Source: Cokeromyces recurvatus
Taxonomy: Eukaryota > Mucoromycota > Mucoromycetes > Mucorales > Mucoraceae
Length of the DNA stretch: 64,000 nt
Direction: 5' to 3'
Assembly: GCF_025118155.1 (NCBI RefSeq)
Contig: NW_026251425.1
Location: 144,077 to 208,076, forward strand
Part shown: positions 4,370 to 55,839 of the stretch, piece after piece
How positions within the stretch are numbered: the first letter of the stretch is position 1
Layout of the letters: each line of letters starts with the position of its first letter
Notes under the pieces: model-generated
What the model saw: only the letters and a program-made list of their open reading frames with translations
The model's database searches: none
What the model was told of the DNA's origin: nothing
Translations under genes and position numbers: made by a program

Positions 4370-5769
4370 ATGCGTCAACAAGAACGAACAGAATATACAC
4401 CAGGAACTATTGTTTTTGCAAAACTAAAAGGATACCCATGGTGGCCAGCAAGGGTAAAGTGGTCTTTTTTTTTTGTTTTGTTTTTTTAAAAAAAAAAAAA
4501 ATTTTTTTGTCAATTAGGGAAAAGTAGTATTCTTATCAAATAACTAAAAATTATTTTTTTTTTCTGTTCATGATAGATCGAAGCAGACCATGCAGTACCC
4601 CCAAAAGTCTTGAAACAAAAATCCAAAGCTAAAGGTGCATTATATACTGTATTTTTTTATGGCTCTAGAGACTAGTAAGTAAAATATAAAAACATAGACA
4701 TATATTCACACACAAAAGAGAGAGAGAGTGTGTGTGTGTGTGAGTGGGTGAGAAAGGGGTAGGGTATTGGAAAAAGAAAGCAAAATATTCATTCAAGTTT
4801 ACAAAAATAAAATAAAAAAAATAAAATAAAAGTGGATTCTTTGGCCCAGATGCCATTCGACCATTTGATAGTGAAATTGTTGAAAATGATTTAAAAGCAA
4901 AAAAATTCAAAACAAAGGATTTGGAAATGGCGGTACGTCAGGCTTTGAATCCTGCATTATTGGAACAAATTGAAAGGGAGGAAGCAGAGGCAGAGGCAGA
5001 GGAAGAAGAACATACAAATAAAAGAAAGAATAATACAAAAAAGACAGCAGCAAATGGTAAGAGAAAATCAACGACACGTAAAATGGCAGTGGAAGATGAA
5101 GATGAATCTATAGAAGATAGAAAGAGAAGAGTAAGTTGTTGTGAATAGGTAGAATAAGAAATTTTAATATGAATTTATAGCGTAAATCAATGTCACTTGA
5201 AAAAGAAGAAGATGTACGTAATTCACCACAAATGGATAAAGAGGAATTAAAAAAGACACCAGAATATAAAAGGGTTTATCATATTAGACATAGATTACAA
5301 AGATTGGTATATAATAAAAAAGAGGTAAAGACTGAATAAGTGTAAGGAAAGAAAGAAAAAAGGCAACAAGAAAGAAAGAGAGAAATTAACGCGTAAAATA
5401 ATAGGGCGAAATTCCAAAAGAAGATTATCCAAAGATTTTACAAGTTATAAAAGAGATTGAAGAAGCACCAATGACATATAACCTTTTAAAAGTAAGACAT
5501 AAAGGGAACAGAAGTAAAAAAAGAAATGTAAGAGAGAAAGAGAGAAAATGAGATTTAAGTGTGTTCTATAGGATACCAAAATTGGCAAAGTCGTTAAAGC
5601 AGCTTGTTCTTATCCATTTGAAAATGAAAGTACAATTAAGGAACGGTGCCAACAAATAATGAGGAGCTGGAAATCACTTTTAATTGATCCTCAAACTGGC
5701 AGTAGTTTAACAAGAAAATCATCAGAAGACAATAATAATAATAATAATAATAGTAGTAGTAATAATTAG
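4370..5769 (+). CDS. PWWP-domain chromatin protein with C-terminal TFIIS-N/IBD-like helical domain
   Basis: Probable reader of methylated nucleosomes. Six exons: 4370-4453, 4577-4674, 4833-5130, 5181-5324, 5405-5491, 5572-5769; all junctions keep frame and give 302 aa. The PWWP domain lies at residues about 8-75: GTIVFAKLKGYPWWPAR is the defining strand, followed by FYGSRDYGFF. It is followed by an acidic, Glu-rich and Lys-rich linker with a basic patch, then a helical segment (YHIRHRLQRLVYNKK, then IGKVVKAACSYPF and ERCQQIMRSWKSLL) that resembles the TFIIS N-terminal/LEDGF integrase-binding fold. The tail is an Asn/Ser repeat. This HDGF/LEDGF-like layout suggests linking chromatin to transcription elongation factors; partners are not visible. 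Confidence 0.75.
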
Positions 5770-6065
5770 TCTTTATAAAAGAAAAAAAAATAATTGTTAT
5801 TTGATAATGGATTTCAATAAAACAAACAAGAAGTGAAAGAGAGAAGAAGTAAGGGAGAAAAATAGAGTGAATGAGAGTGATTCACAGATAGACAGAAGAG
5901 CTAATATGTGTGTGCATAAAGATGGCAGTTACTATTTTCTTTGTTTGTAAAGTAATACAAAAACATACTACTTCTTTTATAATAAGTTATTATTCAATTA
6001 TCAAGGCTTTTATTTATTTATTCCCTTTTTTTTTTGTTTTATTACTATTATTTGTTTATCTTGGA

Positions 6066-7362
6066 ATGTACAATAAATCATTATTATTATTATTTACACA
6101 ACTATTTCTATTATCGAGTGCAATACCTATTAGTGTAGATCGACCTACTTATGAACCTGGTATCTTGTATTTGCCTGATAAAGCAATAGCCATAGGTAAT
6201 TAACAAAAAAATAAAAATACACTCTCTATTCAATATTGATACACCTGAATTTCTTTTTCTTAGATGATGGTTATAATTTAAGTATTCAAGGGGTCCTAGG
6301 TGGTATTGTCTTGATTATTTCAGGTCTATTGTTAATACTACGTCCACTTTGGGATAGAACACCTGGTGGTACACACACTCAAAAACTTGCTGGCTTTATT
6401 ACGATGGGTTTTGTAACTTGGGTTATGTTAGCTAACTTTGAGCCCTTCCCAGAGACATATGGTAGAAATCGACAAACGATTTATTTTATTGTTCCCTTGA
6501 TAGTAGGGTGTGTTTTCATGTTCTGTATGACGGTCACTATTCAACTTTATTTGATGCTATTGGGTGGATTAGGTGGACTAGCTGCTGGATTATGGGTCTT
6601 GGGATGGAAAGAAAGTCTATCGATTCAATCAGAGCATGGACGTGCCATCTTTTTAACGGTCTTAATTGTTTTAATGATGGTCATGTCACTTTATAGATGC
6701 TTTTGGCATAGGTTAGGAACTAGTTTAGCGGGTTCTTATATATTTTTTATGGGATTAGATATTTATTTTCATACTGGATTTTTATATTGTTTTACATCTA
6801 CATTAGATGGACGGCATGGTAAATATATATATGTATATAAAGAGAGACAGAGAGAGAGAAAGAGGACAAATGTGTGTGTGTGTGTGTGTGTGTGTGGATT
6901 GTGTCGACTTGCATTATTATTTGAATACTAATGTCTCTATTCTTTTTAGAACATCATTATGTAGTTTATCGTAGTACATACATTATGCAAGCATGTCTTA
7001 TTGTTGCTTTTATCATTACTTATCTATTTCAAAGCTCTGGTCGATTTAATGATGTAAGGAAAGAATAGGGTTGAAAAAGAAAAAAAAAAGATAGATTATA
7101 GAGAGATTAATTTTTTTTTTCGCTATAGCATCTTTTATTTCAACATTCTGTCGTTATGAAAACAATGTTAGATCCTGCATACAATAAGGCACCCATAATG
7201 AATAATAATAATAATAGTTGGTGGATGCCAACTAGATATATTCCATCTACTTGGTATAGTTGGAGACCTCCTATGTGGCCTGCCTTCGTTAGTAATAATC
7301 GAACTACTGTTCCTCCACTTGCAGCAGTGGCGCCCGCTGCTCCAGTAGTTCCTATACAATAA
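6066..7362 (+). CDS. Multi-TM protein with TMEM198/TM7SF3-like (DUF4203) domain
   Basis: Integral membrane protein of about 340 aa. Exons 6066-6195, 6264-6818, 6950-7053, 7129-7362 join in frame. The chosen start gives a clean signal peptide (MYNKSLLLLFTQLFLLSSAI); an ATG at 5910 in the same frame would add a hydrophobic low-complexity leader and is less likely. After a short lumenal stretch come about seven hydrophobic spans with the Gly-rich LGGLGGLAAG motif and paired Trp/Gly positions typical of the DUF4203 family, which includes TM7SF3 and TMEM198. The C-terminus is a Trp/Pro/Ala-rich tail (PSTWYSWRPPMWPAF). A (GT)n tract lies in intron 2. Family assignment is by pattern; molecular function is unknown. 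Confidence 0.65.
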
Positions 7363-50428: not shown

Positions 50429-51426
50429 TAAAAAAGGGGGTGAAAATTAACAAAATTATTTTTATTTGAAATAACCAGACAACGCGTTTCTCATGTGATT
50501 ATGTAAAGAAGGATATCATACAGTGATCCTTAGTCTGAACTTGAGCTTGTATTATTATTATTGTCTTTTTTTTTCAAAGATTTCTCTCCCTCTTTATACA
50601 AGTAGCATAAAGAGAAGGTAATTAAATAATACGCATAACCCTTTAACTCGTTAGAAGCAACTTGTTAAATTACTTTAGAGATGCTTTCCTATTTGTATTT
50701 ATATATGTATACATAGATTAAGAGTAATAGATAATATACCTAGTAAATGTATTTAAATTCTCTTTAGTTAATATATAATTGTGATAATTTACTTACAGAT
50801 TGTTCCAATATCCACTAAAATATAGTAATACCCTAACATATTATAACAATCAAAGATATTTGTCGGTGTATAGTACAAATTGTATCGTTTTGTAAATAAT
50901 GTTAAAGACTGAAGTTTACTCAGATTTATAAGATAGTCTTCAAGTTAAATTTTAGATAGTTAACTCTCTTTCATGATTAATCTTTTACATATTTAATCTA
51001 AACCTTTACAGACTTTTCTTGTATTGAAAAGAAAAACAAAGATACGTATATTCTAGTTTTCATTTAATCAAATAAGTTTTGATCTTAAGAACTGACTAAA
51101 TAGTATTATTTATTATACAATACATTAGATTGCTTGAGTCAACTATTAGGCATCTTTGTTCATGATAGCCTACATTGTAAAATTAAGAAAAAAAAAAGAG
51201 ATATAAATGATACTGATAAAAGGATAGATACAGAAAAGAGCATTATTACCATTTTCAAGATAAACATCAAAATATGTAATAATTTTGTCAATCTAATAAA
51301 TACTTCTTAGAAGAACTAAAGTATTTTCAAGTAAAAATCAACATTTACTCTTGACTAATTTTACTTTATTTTTAACTGGTCTGAATATGAATGAAATTAT
51401 CTGATTTTAACATCACCAGTTTAGTA
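50372..51426. other. Intergenic region, 1.05 kb, left flank of transposon
   Basis: Begins with a 45-nt A run (50382-50426) just upstream of the COP1-like start. The rest is AT-rich without coding signal. Its last two bases (TA, 51425-51426) are the left target duplication of the Fanzor element. Confidence 0.65.
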
Positions 51427-51546
51427 CAGTCGACGAAACTAGGTTGGGCCAATAAAAAAAAAACTTGGTCATTTCCAAATTAAATTAGGACAAGGTTACA
51501 AAATTGGGACACTAATAGGAAAATGGGTCACAGATGTGAAAATAGG
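51427..51546 (+). repeat. Left terminal inverted repeat of Fanzor element
   Basis: Pairs with 54539-54657. Similarity ends abruptly after the GTGAAAATAGG string, where the left continues GCATATTGAG and the right ACACGCATAC. Confidence 0.92.
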
Positions 51547-51671
51547 GCATATTGAGTGTTAGTATATATTAACTTTCTATTAGTCATGTATTTATATACT
51601 CTCTTACCTGTAGTAATCTTTAAGTTTTTTGTCCAAAGACGCAAAACAACCACGTTCTATGTGGCGCGTTG
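51427..51671 (-). ncRNA. Predicted guide (omega/fRNA) locus of the Fanzor element
   Basis: Prediction by position only. In TnpB and Fanzor systems the guide RNA scaffold is usually transcribed from the region at and beyond the nuclease stop codon to the element end, and the guide is read from flanking host DNA. Here that interval is 245 bp on the minus strand from the stop at 51672 to the end at 51427, and includes the left TIR. The guide would then be the reverse complement of the bases just below 51427. No transcript evidence is available. Confidence 0.4.
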
Positions 51672-52889
51672 TCAATTTTGACGTGTAAAAAATGTTGGTC
51701 GGTCCATACCAGCCCAGATTTGACATGCAGTGAACATCATATTTTTGGCAGCGAGGATATCTCTGTTCCAGAATATATTACAATCGTTGCAGATCAATAG
51801 ATTAAAGAAAGATTTGTCTTCAACTCTATGAGTTCTAAGCTTCATTTCTTTGCAATTTGGACAAACCTATTTTATAGAAGCACAATTAGTTGATTTAATA
51901 AGCGTTAACTTGTATTGTAATGACTTACAGAAGATGTCAGGAATTCATTTATATCAAGCAAAAGAACCTCATCAAGGTTTTGTCTTCTTTTCAAATTCTT
52001 ATAAATAATATCCGAAACGCCAACTCTTCGTCCTCTATATTTTACATGGCTTCTCCCTTTTACACTATCACCAAAAACTACTAAAGGCATCTTTGCCGTG
52101 TCCCCTTCATTAAAGTGGCTTTTGTGGTTAGTTCTTCTAAAATATGAATAGTTGTTAGTAAGATGATCATATAAACTTGGAAAATAGCTTATTACCTTAT
52201 TTCTATAGGGAGGTTACGCCTATTAGTACTTCTTCGCCCGGCCATCTTCTTCCTTTTCTTTCTATTGAAACCAGTCTTCTTTCTTTTATTGCGATTATAT
52301 TTTTTTCCTCCATTAATCAAAATATTACAAGCTTCTTCGAGGGCACACTGTCTTCCATAATAATTATTCCATTTATCTGAAACTGTCCTAAAGTTATAGA
52401 AGCCAAAAAAACGACCCAAATGAGTCAATACATATACTATATGGTTGATATAAGAATCAACAGAAGAAGTTTTAGTCGTCGGGATTCCAGTCTCCAGATC
52501 TTTTATGCCTTGTCCGATTTTTAAGGCGTTTTGTTCTCTTGCTTGATTTATAGACCCAGAAAAGTGATAGTATTCATTCACTGTCAGAGACCTGACCTGT
52601 TCATCTCCATAATACGCTATATATGCATTCTTACGGCCAGGATCCAGAAAACAAGGACGGAAAAATTCTTCAACTTCGTCTGTGTTGAAATCAGCCATTT
52701 CAAGAATTACTTTGTCTTCATCAAGGACTTCTGGGACTCTCCTTGGAAAAGAAATTCTACAAGTATATCCATCTGTGTATATACTGTTTAAAAACATGCG
52801 CCCCTTCTGTCTGGGTAACTCTTGTAGTTCGGCCAAACTATTGCAATAAAAATTAATAATAGCCTTAATTGGGAAAGGTTTTTTTTTAG
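51672..52889 (-). pseudogene. Fanzor (eukaryotic TnpB-like) RNA-guided endonuclease, apparently N-terminally truncated
   Basis: Three exons on the minus strand, 52889-52196, 52136-51929 and 51866-51672, encode about 364 aa of the C-terminal Fanzor core. RuvC-I is FFRPCFLDPGRKNAYIAYYG (Asp codon at 52644). RuvC-II is EVLLLDINEFLTSS (Glu at 51946), preceded by MPLVVFGDS. The zinc ribbon has VCPNCKE and LLICNDC. RuvC-III is FWNRDILAAKNM (Asp at 51761), so all three catalytic acids are present. The C-terminus reads IWAGMDRPTFF. A basic RKKRKK stretch is a probable nuclear signal. Upstream of TAKKKPFPIKAI the frame hits a stop and no N-terminal recognition lobe is found; family members usually have far more sequence before RuvC-I. 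I therefore call it a decayed or incompletely resolved copy. Confidence 0.85.
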
Positions 52890-52920
52890 CTGTGAGCTCT
52901 CGAAAAAAAAAAATCAATCC

Positions 52921-52982
52921 ATAAATCCATCACTGGTGATAAGCATTATCACTAGGCATTAGCACTGTTGATAAATCCATCA
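52921..52982. repeat. 12-bp direct repeat enclosing a 38-bp palindromic insert
   Basis: ATAAATCCATCA occurs at 52921-52932 and 52971-52982. The 38 bp between contain partly self-complementary GGTGATAAGC/GCATTATCAC-like blocks. It sits at the junction between the Fanzor core and the retroelement-like fragment, so it may mark the truncation event. Confidence 0.6.
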
Positions 52983-53236
52983 TTGTCTATCACTATTTAT
53001 TGTCATGGTGGACATCGACTCCCTCTCCAGCAAATGCGTGCCAACCTCTGTAAGCTCAACATCAACACTCGCCGCATTTTAGGTATTCATTATGACGTAT
53101 TTGAGATGATTGATGGGCTATATTGAGATGAAATGATTAAATAAATAAAAATTTTAATTATATTTTAACGAGCATGGCTGTCAAAATAATAAAAGAATTG
53201 AAACCAGAAAAGTACGTTGATTGAGTTAGACAAATA

Positions 53237-53283
53237 TATTTTAATTCATGATAAAGCACATAATAGGTGCATGAATTAAAATA
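53237..53283. repeat. Perfect 14-bp hairpin in the solo LTR
   Basis: TATTTTAATTCATG (53237-53250) is exactly complementary to CATGAATTAAAATA (53270-53283), leaving a 19-nt loop. Confidence 0.85.
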
Positions 53284-53328
53284 ATAAAAAAAGAAATAAT
53301 AAAAAGCATTAAGTTTTAGGTTGTTGAT

Positions 53329-53359
53329 CTCAATGTAAGCCTAACTAACTTACATTGAG
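53329..53359. repeat. Perfect 11-bp hairpin in the solo LTR
   Basis: CTCAATGTAAG (53329-53339) pairs with CTTACATTGAG (53349-53359) around a 9-nt loop. Confidence 0.85.
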
Positions 53360-54538
53360 TTAAGAACAGATTAACCTCTACAAAAACAATGTTATTTTTT
53401 ATTTATTACTTTAATACTAAATAATAGTATTGGCTTGTGCACAGACATTTGTAGAATTCACAAGTAGATAATTTCGAAGTTCAACTTATGCAACTAGACT
53501 AAATTACTATTTGAGATAAAAGTAGTTTTAAGACATAAAGGGCTTACCTACCTTTATCGGGAAAACCAATACTGTTCTAACATTAAAACTCATCAATTAG
53601 TACTACCATTGCTCTACAGCCTTGATACCCGGATTTTAAACCATTACGACAAATATCAGTTGACAAAGGATAGAAATATCCGTTAATAAGGATGTTTCTC
53701 GGATTGCGAGTCTAGTATTGGACATCGTGTATATATGATGACCCTCTGGGATATAGCAACTGCTAATTAAGCCGATGCACGGAATTCCAAAGAAGCAATA
53801 GCATTGTCCATGTTTCAATTCGGGATAACGAGCTTAAAACATATAAATAGGACAATACTTCGTAGTAGTAGAAGCCTCTTTCTCTTTTATTCACAAAATA
53901 AAACTGAACCAAAAGTTCTTTCTCATTATTTGATGGATTTTTTACTTTCTTTTTCATTATTAAATTGAGTCAAATATCACACATTATCCTCAGGACAAGG
54001 TGGTTAGCTTCCTCATTCACGACGAATATGAGTCCGAGTTACGCATATAACTGCAGAAATTCTGAATTTCTGCGCTTGACAACTTCAATATCACTGACCC
54101 CGCCAACTGCCGCCACCCTAAGCTCAATAATCTGTCTACTGAAGATAGACTGGTTGCAGTCAGATTTCAAAATTTCTTAGTGTTTTTGCTGCAGTATACA
54201 GACTTTCAAGACTCCTATCTACAATTCTGTAGCCAGACTTCTTTATGAAGTTGGGATACTTTGACCTTGACACTTTGAAGTCATTTGACCGTGCTCCGCC
54301 CCTATAAGTATACTTCTGGGTATATTATGGACCAGCATAATATTAGTCTTCTTTAACTTGTCTACGTTTTTTTTTATCCTTTTCCCTCTAGCCTCTGAAG
54401 AGGGTTTTTCTTAATCTTTTCGACTTGGCTAGGGCAAAACAGTGGCAACATAACCCCTACGTGCCCATTGGCTTTTTTATTCTATTTTAATAAATCTTTA
54501 ATTATATCTGTATTGGCGTCTCATTTTCGTATGCGTGT

Positions 54539-54657
54539 CCTATTTTCACATCTGTGACCCATTTTCCTATTGGTGTCCCAATTTTGTAACCTTGTCCTAA
54601 TTTAATTTGGAAATGACCAAATTTTTTTTTATTGGCTCAACCTAGTTTCGTCGACTG
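54539..54657 (-). repeat. Right terminal inverted repeat of Fanzor element
   Basis: Inverted partner of 51427-51546; the outermost 20 bases are identical. TA follows at 54658-54659. Confidence 0.92.
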
Positions 54658-54673
54658 TAATAAGAAGATCTCA

Positions 54674-55540
54674 CCTCTGCTTGCATGTCGTTTTTATAGT
54701 CAAATGGTTCGTCCTCAATTAGATTATGGTTTTGCAATCAGTCCTCTCTCTGCTAAACTTAGCAAAGAACTGGATACCTTTCAAAATTCATGCATTCGAC
54801 GTATCTTTGGTGGTCACTCGCGGTCCTCGGCGAAAGTCATGCTTCATGTTGTCGACCTACCATCTATGAAGACCCGTATTGCAGTCCTCCAAGCGCAACA
54901 CCTCTTTCGAACTTCCCAATTACCAGCAGATACTCTTCTTGCCCATCTTTTGCCTCATGTTTAGCTCTCAAATAGTCATTCCCACTGGTATAAATTGGCT
55001 CAAACTACATTGTGGAAACACCTATGCTCACCAAACATCTCAACGCTCGACCGAAAACAATTCTACACTCTTCGTGCTAAGTTTCTAGACGATCAATTCC
55101 AAAACCTTCGTCAAGATACTAATTCCCTCCTATTGTCTTCCTCACGCTCCACTCTTGAATTGGATCCCATCCTTTACTTACCAATGACTACCTCAGAACG
55201 TAGCCGAGTGTTTCGATGGAGACTTGGCTGGCTACCGGGTGGTAAACCTAAAGAATGTATCATTCGTCCGTCTCATAATTGGAGCCGGCAACATGCTATT
55301 GAGTGCTTACATGTACATCATCGTCTTCACATGCCTGCTTCAGTCGAAGATCCCATCTCGTTTCTCCTCAACTTGCTTCCACTACATAAACCTCTTCGTC
55401 CTTCTGATTGTACGAGCTGGTATACTTTATGGCCTATTATTTGTACGATTCTACATGAACTTGATTACTACTTCCATGATGAATTTCCTCCTGATCCTGT
55501 CGATCCTGGTCTCAAGCTGTTGAATTGGTTATCCAAGTAA
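54674..55540 (+). pseudogene. LINE reverse-transcriptase C-terminal fragment, one in-frame stop
   Basis: The fragment starts within the post-catalytic part of the polymerase: RFYSQMVRPQLDYGFAISPL matches the thumb-region YxxxxRPxLxYG pattern of LINE reverse transcriptases. A single TAG at 54962-54964 interrupts an otherwise continuous frame, which then runs to the stop at 55538-55540. The C-terminal RVFRWRLGWLPGG, followed by Cys and His residues (ECII...HAIECLHVHH), looks like the terminal zinc-knuckle-like domain of fungal LINEs. The YxDD catalytic core is not present because of 5' truncation. An ATG at 54632 lies in the transposon TIR and is not a true start. Confidence 0.7.
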
Positions 55541-55826
55541 TAGTGTGCGTCTTCCTGGTCACTTTGGTCTTATTTGTTTTTAAATTGTTTCTTCTCACTT
55601 TTTCGCTTTTTCCTCCTTATATTTTCTCTTAATTCCAAAATACTGCTCTTTTCTTTTTCCTTCTCGTTTTCTTTTTTTCCCTTCTTGTCCTTTAGGAAGG
55701 TTTTTATTCTTATTTCCCCTCTATAACTGGCTCGGGCAATATTGCGCATTTATTTCGTCGCTACATGCTCATTGCCAAAAAATTTAAAAAATAATAATAA
55801 TAATAATAAAACTCAGAATTTAATCG
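54674..55826 (+). mobile_element. 5'-truncated LINE (non-LTR retrotransposon) copy with 13-bp target duplication
   Basis: TAAGAAGATCTCA occurs at 54661-54673 and 55827-55839 and brackets the copy. The body encodes the C-terminal part of a LINE reverse-transcriptase polyprotein, then a T-rich 3' UTR with TCTATAACTGGCTCGGGCAA, and an (AAT)n tail at about 55785-55808 followed by 18 extra bases before the duplication. 5' truncation and the tail are the usual marks of target-primed reverse transcription. Confidence 0.75.
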
Positions 55827-55839
55827 TAAGAAGATCTCA

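Follow-up and report, generated by a model that had tools for sequence, protein, structure and literature searches.

Relation to described Fanzor elements

Two kinds of described elements come closest to the one reported here: the Spu-1 elements of Spizellomyces punctatus, which carry the Fanzor1 gene of SpuFz1 between inverted repeats (PMC10432273), and the TA-flanked, mariner-like elements carrying Fanzor1, with and without a transposase, described by Bao and Jurka in 2013 (PMC3627910). Hosts of Fanzor1 families in the latter work include Mucor circinelloides (10), Rhizopus oryzae (4) and Phycomyces blakesleeanus (3). RNA-guided activity is established for SpuFz1, GtFz1 and PpFz1, and in the solved Fanzors the WED and REC regions read the target-adjacent motif (TAM) and hold the RNA (PMC10432273, PMC11423790). 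Statements about these papers refer throughout to the portions of their text available to us. Here we describe a transposable element with a truncated Fanzor gene in Cokeromyces recurvatus, a member of the Mucorales. It occupies positions 51427-54657 of a 64,000-nucleotide stretch of contig NW_026251425.1 (the window), with the Fanzor sense on the minus strand. No report of Fanzor together with Cokeromyces was found in the open-licence literature, and the window copy is a new, degenerate member of an element type described since 2013. Our overall reading, to which we assign a probability of about 0.85, is that it is a 5'-deleted, non-autonomous, Fanzor1-carrying element of the Tc1/mariner type, mobilized by a transposase acting in trans, and that its relatives are SpuFz1-like with (A)TTA as their TAM.

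The element resembles Spu-1 in having Fanzor1 between inverted repeats, in the reported lack of a transposase between those repeats in the available portion of that work (PMC10432273), and in the TAM-consistent bases before the 5' repeat. In SpuFz1, a conserved CA before the 5' repeat agrees with the assayed TAM, CATA (PMC10432273); by our own reading, the final TA of this motif is the duplicated site. Unlike Spu-1, where the repeats are 30 nt long, the repeats here are ∼120 bp, the predicted TAM is (A)TTA, separate transposase elements have matching ends, and the window copy is truncated. With the elements of Bao and Jurka it shares a Fanzor-only content, terminal inverted repeats (TIRs) common with mariner elements and TA flanks, whereas the Mucorales Fanzor elements classified in the available portion of that work, which does not mention Cokeromyces, are MuDR-like with 9-bp duplications, or unclassified (PMC3627910). 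PpFz1 of Parasitella parasitica differs in its TAM, ATN (PMC11423790). TnpB of IS200/IS605 and IS607 is bacterial, is associated with different transposase classes and is distant in sequence; the NCBIfam TnpB models match three of the relatives, far below cut-off.

Element anatomy and copies in the genome

The two TIRs align with four mismatches and one 1-base gap and are identical across their first 20 bp, and a TA lies immediately outside each of them (Table 1). An earlier sequence-only reading of the same DNA had delimited the element at exactly these coordinates and had described inverted ends of about 120 bp with TA on both outer sides, both of which hold. In the genome (28.05 Mb, 64 contigs), the 20-base end CAGTCGACGAAACTAGGTTG occurs at least 108 times with up to 3 mismatches and the reversed pattern 0 times, so that the recurrence of this end is far from chance. 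Many of the ends pair into elements of 0.1 to 4.5 kb, and one candidate pair lies 6.7 kb apart. Matches to Fanzor number 133 for the window protein and 112 for a second lineage, many being exons of one gene; a hand-merged list contains 109 positions (two from local tblastn), and the uncurated count of Fanzor loci is of the order of 100.

Flanks were read and placed for 82 ends with up to 4 mismatches in the end sequence, of which 30 belong to the Fanzor 5' side and 39 to the 3' side, and 13 have no Fanzor match within 4.7 kb. TA flanks of the Tc1/mariner kind are present at 29 of the 30, 38 of the 39 and 11 of the 13, respectively, and at 18/18 ends of further copies; the TA is thus presumably the target-site duplication. 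Membership in a MuDR-like group was rejected, as the window flanks share TA and no 9-bp repeat; the flanks of nine elements were also compared. When the flanks of nine elements were joined, no corresponding empty site turned up in the loci examined. The predicted unoccupied target has one match besides the window's own flank, with 3 mismatches, and the reversed control has 10 matches. The right flank is uninformative for an empty site, because the repeat that starts at 54672 does so in its other genome copies too.

A Fanzor gene without its N-terminal half

The minus-strand gene contains the motifs LDPGRK, DINEF, CPNC...CNDC and FWNRD, and two GT-AG introns (52195-52137 and 51928-51867) join its three pieces into a single frame of 378 residues, counted from 52929. 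Homology to the relatives begins at the AG acceptor 52839-52838, and the true exon start is therefore probably 52837. The frame has the features of Fanzor1/TnpB-like proteins in its C-terminal half: a split RuvC triad (D..E..D), DPG in RuvC-I and a C4 zinc ribbon before the last RD. PF07282 matches the gene above its cut-off (E = 1.3e-7), and a profile of the relatives matches SpuFz1 with E = 1.9e-18, indicating RuvC-zinc ribbon homology. The motifs are as quoted in the sequence-only reading (LDPGRK, DINEF, two CxxC pairs, WNRD), and these matches, including the Fanzor/TnpB profile search that it proposed, bear out its assignment of them to RuvC I-III and the zinc ribbon of TnpB/Fanzor nucleases.

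The N-terminal WED and REC regions are absent from the window copy. In the full-length relative P0001, the residues MFLNG are at position 351 of 657, so that the starting point of the window gene lies ∼350 residues into the protein. Seven N-terminal pieces used as tblastn queries found nothing of this half in the window, nor did a profile built from ten such halves match anywhere in the 64 kb. The same profile is positive in 9 of 13 other loci (L031, L033, L034, L038, L041, L043, L045, L054 and L056) and has no match in L030, L048, L052 and L055. The amino-acid identity of the C-terminal half to that of L031 is 67-85%, and the nearest copy, L030, has 94% DNA identity to the window over 1.4 kb. 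Pairwise ratios of nonsynonymous to synonymous substitution rates (dN/dS) for the remaining half are 0.35 against L031 and 0.61 against L030, as derived from tblastn alignments that include intron stretches in places and with four stops skipped for L031. The simplest reading is that the window gene was under past selection and then decayed. The copy is a relic rather than a working RNA-guided nuclease and, since the WED/REC region is missing, we refer to it as a truncated Fanzor gene and not as a Fanzor nuclease. The earlier description of a carried RNA-guided nuclease thus stands for the C-terminal half and fails for the N-terminal half.

A structure prediction of a full-length relative matches the solved Fanzors across residues 69-704, in line with the structural comparison suggested earlier. 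A prediction for P0001 with 14 sequences had a mean predicted local distance difference test score (pLDDT) of 39.3 and was set aside; a second prediction, with 45 sequences, was usable. Ahead of the WED region, the full-length relatives P0001 and P0024, and in part P0026, contain a zinc-knuckle-like motif, CKSC...GH.SAR.....C. Another locus, L052 (G000:C49:4289-5912; L052 90-1713), is a complete element of 1,624 bp, with the first 20 bp perfect at both ends. Its two open frames cover the Fanzor C-terminal half only, starting about where the window copy does.

Transposases in separate elements with the same kind of ends

No transposase was found in the window copy. An element of 1,627 bp at C24:237612-239238, with TA on both sides and ends of the window type, is transposase-coding: three of its open frames match PF13358 (DDE_3), and no Fanzor coding was found in it. 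Its first 36 bases have 31-33 identities to those of the window element in three end comparisons, compared to at most 22 in 10,000 shuffles. Elements with these ends therefore encode a DDE transposase, as expected of the Tc1/mariner type.

The best transposase loci number nine (at least 42% identity, E ≤ 1.2e-33). Among the end matches listed, seven of them have a match to the end pattern no more than 0.7 kb away (C24, C4:744121, C12:1276176, C1:1654638, C13:33837, C20:112241 and C1:704385), and the C12:1276176 locus has both ends, spanning 1,643 bp. The other two, both on C7, have no end-pattern match alongside among the 100 of 110 places listed. No Fanzor match was seen by eye within 15 kb of the nine loci; no systematic search was made for elements holding both genes. 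The Fanzor elements thus resemble passengers: the Tc1/mariner-type transposase would come from other elements of the genome that have ends of this kind. The description of a Fanzor-bearing, Tc1/mariner-like element that lacks its own transposase is thus supported by the TA flanks and by the DDE_3 elements. The sequence-only reading had also looked to further copies for an intact N-terminus and an associated transposase: the ends do recur as a unit and copies with the N-terminal half exist, while the transposases found lie in separate elements.

A one-sided flank beside the Fanzor 5' ends

The base before the flanking TA differs between the two sides. Three ends were left out of these counts: the 3' end of L033, where the surrounding 2 kb duplicate its 5' side in inverted orientation, and the two assigned ends without TA (the C26 5' end and the C1:2037520 3' end). 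On the 5' side, T precedes TA in 28/29 and the flank reads ATTA in 21/29; the corresponding values on the 3' side are 19/37 and 6/37 (Fisher's test, p = 3.3e-5 for T and 4.7e-6 for ATTA). Across the window and 20 loci, the background frequency of a T in front of TA is 0.319. The 5' flanks all differ from one another. In 20 paired Fanzor elements, T is present on both sides in eight, on the 5' side only in 11 and on the 3' side only in one (McNemar p = 0.006); this paired test retained the C26 5' end, scored as not T. Places where TTA adjoins the end pattern (46, both strands) were kept out of the tests.

As a reference, we used 25 Fanzor-free ends, defined by no match to two Fanzor queries within or beside the element. 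L105, whose flank duplicates that of L099, and the single ends L032, L035, L036, L037 and L040, which are possible Fanzor remnants or lack TA, were not included. T precedes TA in 14 of these 25, a share that is distinct from that at the 5' ends (p = 5.4e-4) but not from that at the 3' ends (p = 0.80). T is thus mildly preferred at the ends in general, and on the Fanzor 5' side this preference becomes near-absolute. The possibility that the extra T is the element's own base, with the TA duplication further out, was rejected, as TA is present at -5/-4 in just 12/29 of the 5' flanks.

As the two ends have nearly the same sequence, the transposase alone is not expected to distinguish them, whereas a Fanzor can, with its TAM 5' of the target and its guide 3'. 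By analogy, we predict that these Fanzors require 5'-(A)TTA-3' as their TAM, the final TA being the duplicated site. In IS607, a fixed flanking base belongs to the RNA scaffold, according to the available text; likewise, the duplicated TA at the 3' end is predicted to belong to the scaffold here.

Proposed mechanism and alternative explanations

The DDE_3 transposase copies, which have no Fanzor, probably mobilize in trans the Fanzor copies, which have no transposase. Complete relatives probably act in the manner of SpuFz1, with an omega RNA derived from the 3' end that carries adjoining genomic sequence as its guide. The Fanzor protein would then cut the unoccupied site, and repair from the occupied copy would restore or spread the element. 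The window copy lacks the protein half responsible for binding the TAM and the omega RNA and cannot do so itself. Of this scheme, the anatomy, the homology, the sharing of ends and the one-sided flank are observed, and mobilization in trans, the omega RNA, cutting and homing are proposed. A further step, which we propose tentatively and at slightly less than even odds, is that Fanzor and transposase elements, though separate, share ends, that Fanzor cutting rather than the transposase decides where Fanzor elements persist, and that the one-sided (A)TTA is the footprint of RNA-guided homing.

Several points weigh against this scheme. No empty site was found for the window insertion, the transposase of the C24 element is broken into several frames, and the evidence for the fold is a model of a relative and not of the window protein. 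The side of an end was set by the nearest Fanzor match within 4.7 kb together with a hand-typed list of positions, and the flanks cover 82 of at least 108 ends. RNAalifold found no common structure in 24 3' ends except a five-pair hairpin within the terminal 15 nt, and this invariant hairpin is equally present at 25 5' ends; there is no covariation support for an omega RNA in the 24 3' ends, and nothing in the window matches Rfam at the gathering score. Finally, the Fanzor-free ends favor T somewhat (14/25) and the 3' ends exceed background (p = 0.014), so part of the T signal is the transposase's or the genome's own. These last values would also be expected if the 5' TTA were unrelated to cutting by the Fanzor, with a transposase that favors an AT-rich site and distinguishes the two ends through minor differences between their repeats; within the L054-L061 group, the two ends of several elements do differ at the same few bases. 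We consider this explanation unlikely, since the ends of the window element and several others are identical over the first 20 bp and yet T is found in 28/29 on the 5' side, the pattern is seen across several Fanzor lineages, and the same arrangement is found in SpuFz1, whose TAM was tested (PMC10432273).

The truncation also has other conceivable explanations. An N-terminal half that is present but too diverged, or that lies outside the element, would fit the unexplained 52890-54173 stretch, parts of which match divergently upstream of a Fanzor locus on C2; since the profile finds this half in nine loci and nowhere in the 64-kb window, although the C-terminal half is 67-85% identical to that of L031, this is very improbable. 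We give marginally less credence still to a C-terminal-only protein (RuvC and zinc ribbon) that is made and has its own role, e.g. in repression or nicking. Its frame is open over three exons with good splice sites and an intact RuvC triad, dN/dS against L031 is 0.35, and the complete L052 element likewise fits the C-terminal half only. However, dN/dS against the nearest copy is 0.61, as in decay, and the WED and REC regions, with which the solved Fanzors read the TAM and hold their RNA, are gone.

Under the preferred reading of a truncated passenger with SpuFz1-like relatives, the partner transposase and the directional flank deserve the most attention. The Fanzor loci of this small genome, of the order of 100 in the uncurated count, include many complete elements; together with a candidate partner transposase and a directional footprint, they would allow the homing idea to be tested directly. 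They also offer a concrete TAM prediction for Mucorales Fanzors and bear on the role that Fanzors play for their transposons in living eukaryotes. If true, the one-sided (A)TTA would be a footprint of RNA-guided homing in a eukaryote that is readable over dozens of insertions.

Feature coordinates and neighboring sequences

Table 1. Features of the Fanzor-carrying element, in window coordinates.
Feature	Position	Strand	Basis
Whole element	51427..54657	-	Inverted ends and TA flanks
TA, presumed copy of target-site duplication, Fanzor 3' side	51425..51426	.	TA at 38/39 3' ends
TA, presumed copy of target-site duplication, Fanzor 5' side	54658..54659	.	TA at 29/30 5' ends
TIR, Fanzor 3' side, 123 bp	51427..51549	+	End-to-end alignment
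TIR, Fanzor 5' side, 122 bp	54536..54657	-	End-to-end alignment
Fanzor exon: end of WED region and RuvC-I (LDPGRK)	52196..52837	-	Start inferred from AG acceptor 52839-52838 and homology start
Intron, GT-AG, 59 bp	52137..52195	-	Comparison with relatives
Fanzor exon: RuvC-II (DINEF)	51929..52136	-	Motif and relatives
Intron, GT-AG, 62 bp	51867..51928	-	Comparison with relatives
Fanzor exon: zinc ribbon and RuvC-III (FWNRD), including stop codon	51672..51866	-	PF07282 match
Region where relatives encode the N-terminal half; such coding not found	52890..54173	.	tblastn, profile, DNA matches
5' end region, 90% DNA identity to one-ended copy L032 (C39:169086-169549)	54174..54657 (484 bp)	.	DNA comparison
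Imperfect ∼19-bp subterminal tandem repeats, 3.9 copies, unit TATTGGTGTCCCATTTTCA	54511..54584	.	Repeat detection in window
Predicted TAM of window insertion, ATTA, its TA being the duplicated site	54658..54661	-	Flank statistics
3' region, expected place of omega RNA	51427..51671	-	Inferred by analogy with SpuFz1
Inferred guide, first 20 bases past TA, 3' side	51405..51424	-	Analogy with SpuFz1

The subterminal tandem repeats are candidate transposase-binding sites. Imperfect tandem repeats of ∼19 bp, similar to TGTCCCATTTTCATATTGG and varying in copy number, were also seen by eye near the ends of other copies. The ∼1.3 kb between 52890 and 54173 has only divergent, non-coding matches elsewhere, at C2:403958-404454 and C64:436774-436923, and the C2 matches sit upstream of another Fanzor locus. 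Within it, 53434-53982, compared with L044 3700-3930, contains a TATA box and polyadenylation-like signals and has a divergent copy at C64:436.7k; judged by eye, this looks like a long terminal repeat (LTR) remnant inside the element. Comparison of the window with a plasmid collection gave no match.

Twelve bp from the element lies a repeat of ∼1.16 kb (54672-55830), whose translation resembles, by eye, that of a long interspersed nuclear element (LINE). It has 43 other matches of at least 180 bp, 15 of which begin at the same place (query base 12-14), and is perhaps a non-autonomous unit.

The L033 locus (G000:C64:713580-720500) has its Fanzor element centered in a 2-kb inverted duplication with 99.7% identity (81-2088 / 4987-7001), which covers the end repeat and 1.8 kb of flank and represents a genuine palindrome or else an artefact of the assembly. 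Opposed pairs of related ends, CAGCTGAAGAAAATAGGTTGGGCCA, are found 7.5-8.9 kb apart at G000:C29:161895-169378, C23:637424-645331 and C1:1646464-1655350. None of these three pairs has a match to either Fanzor query, and the C1 pair includes a match to the L053 transposase.
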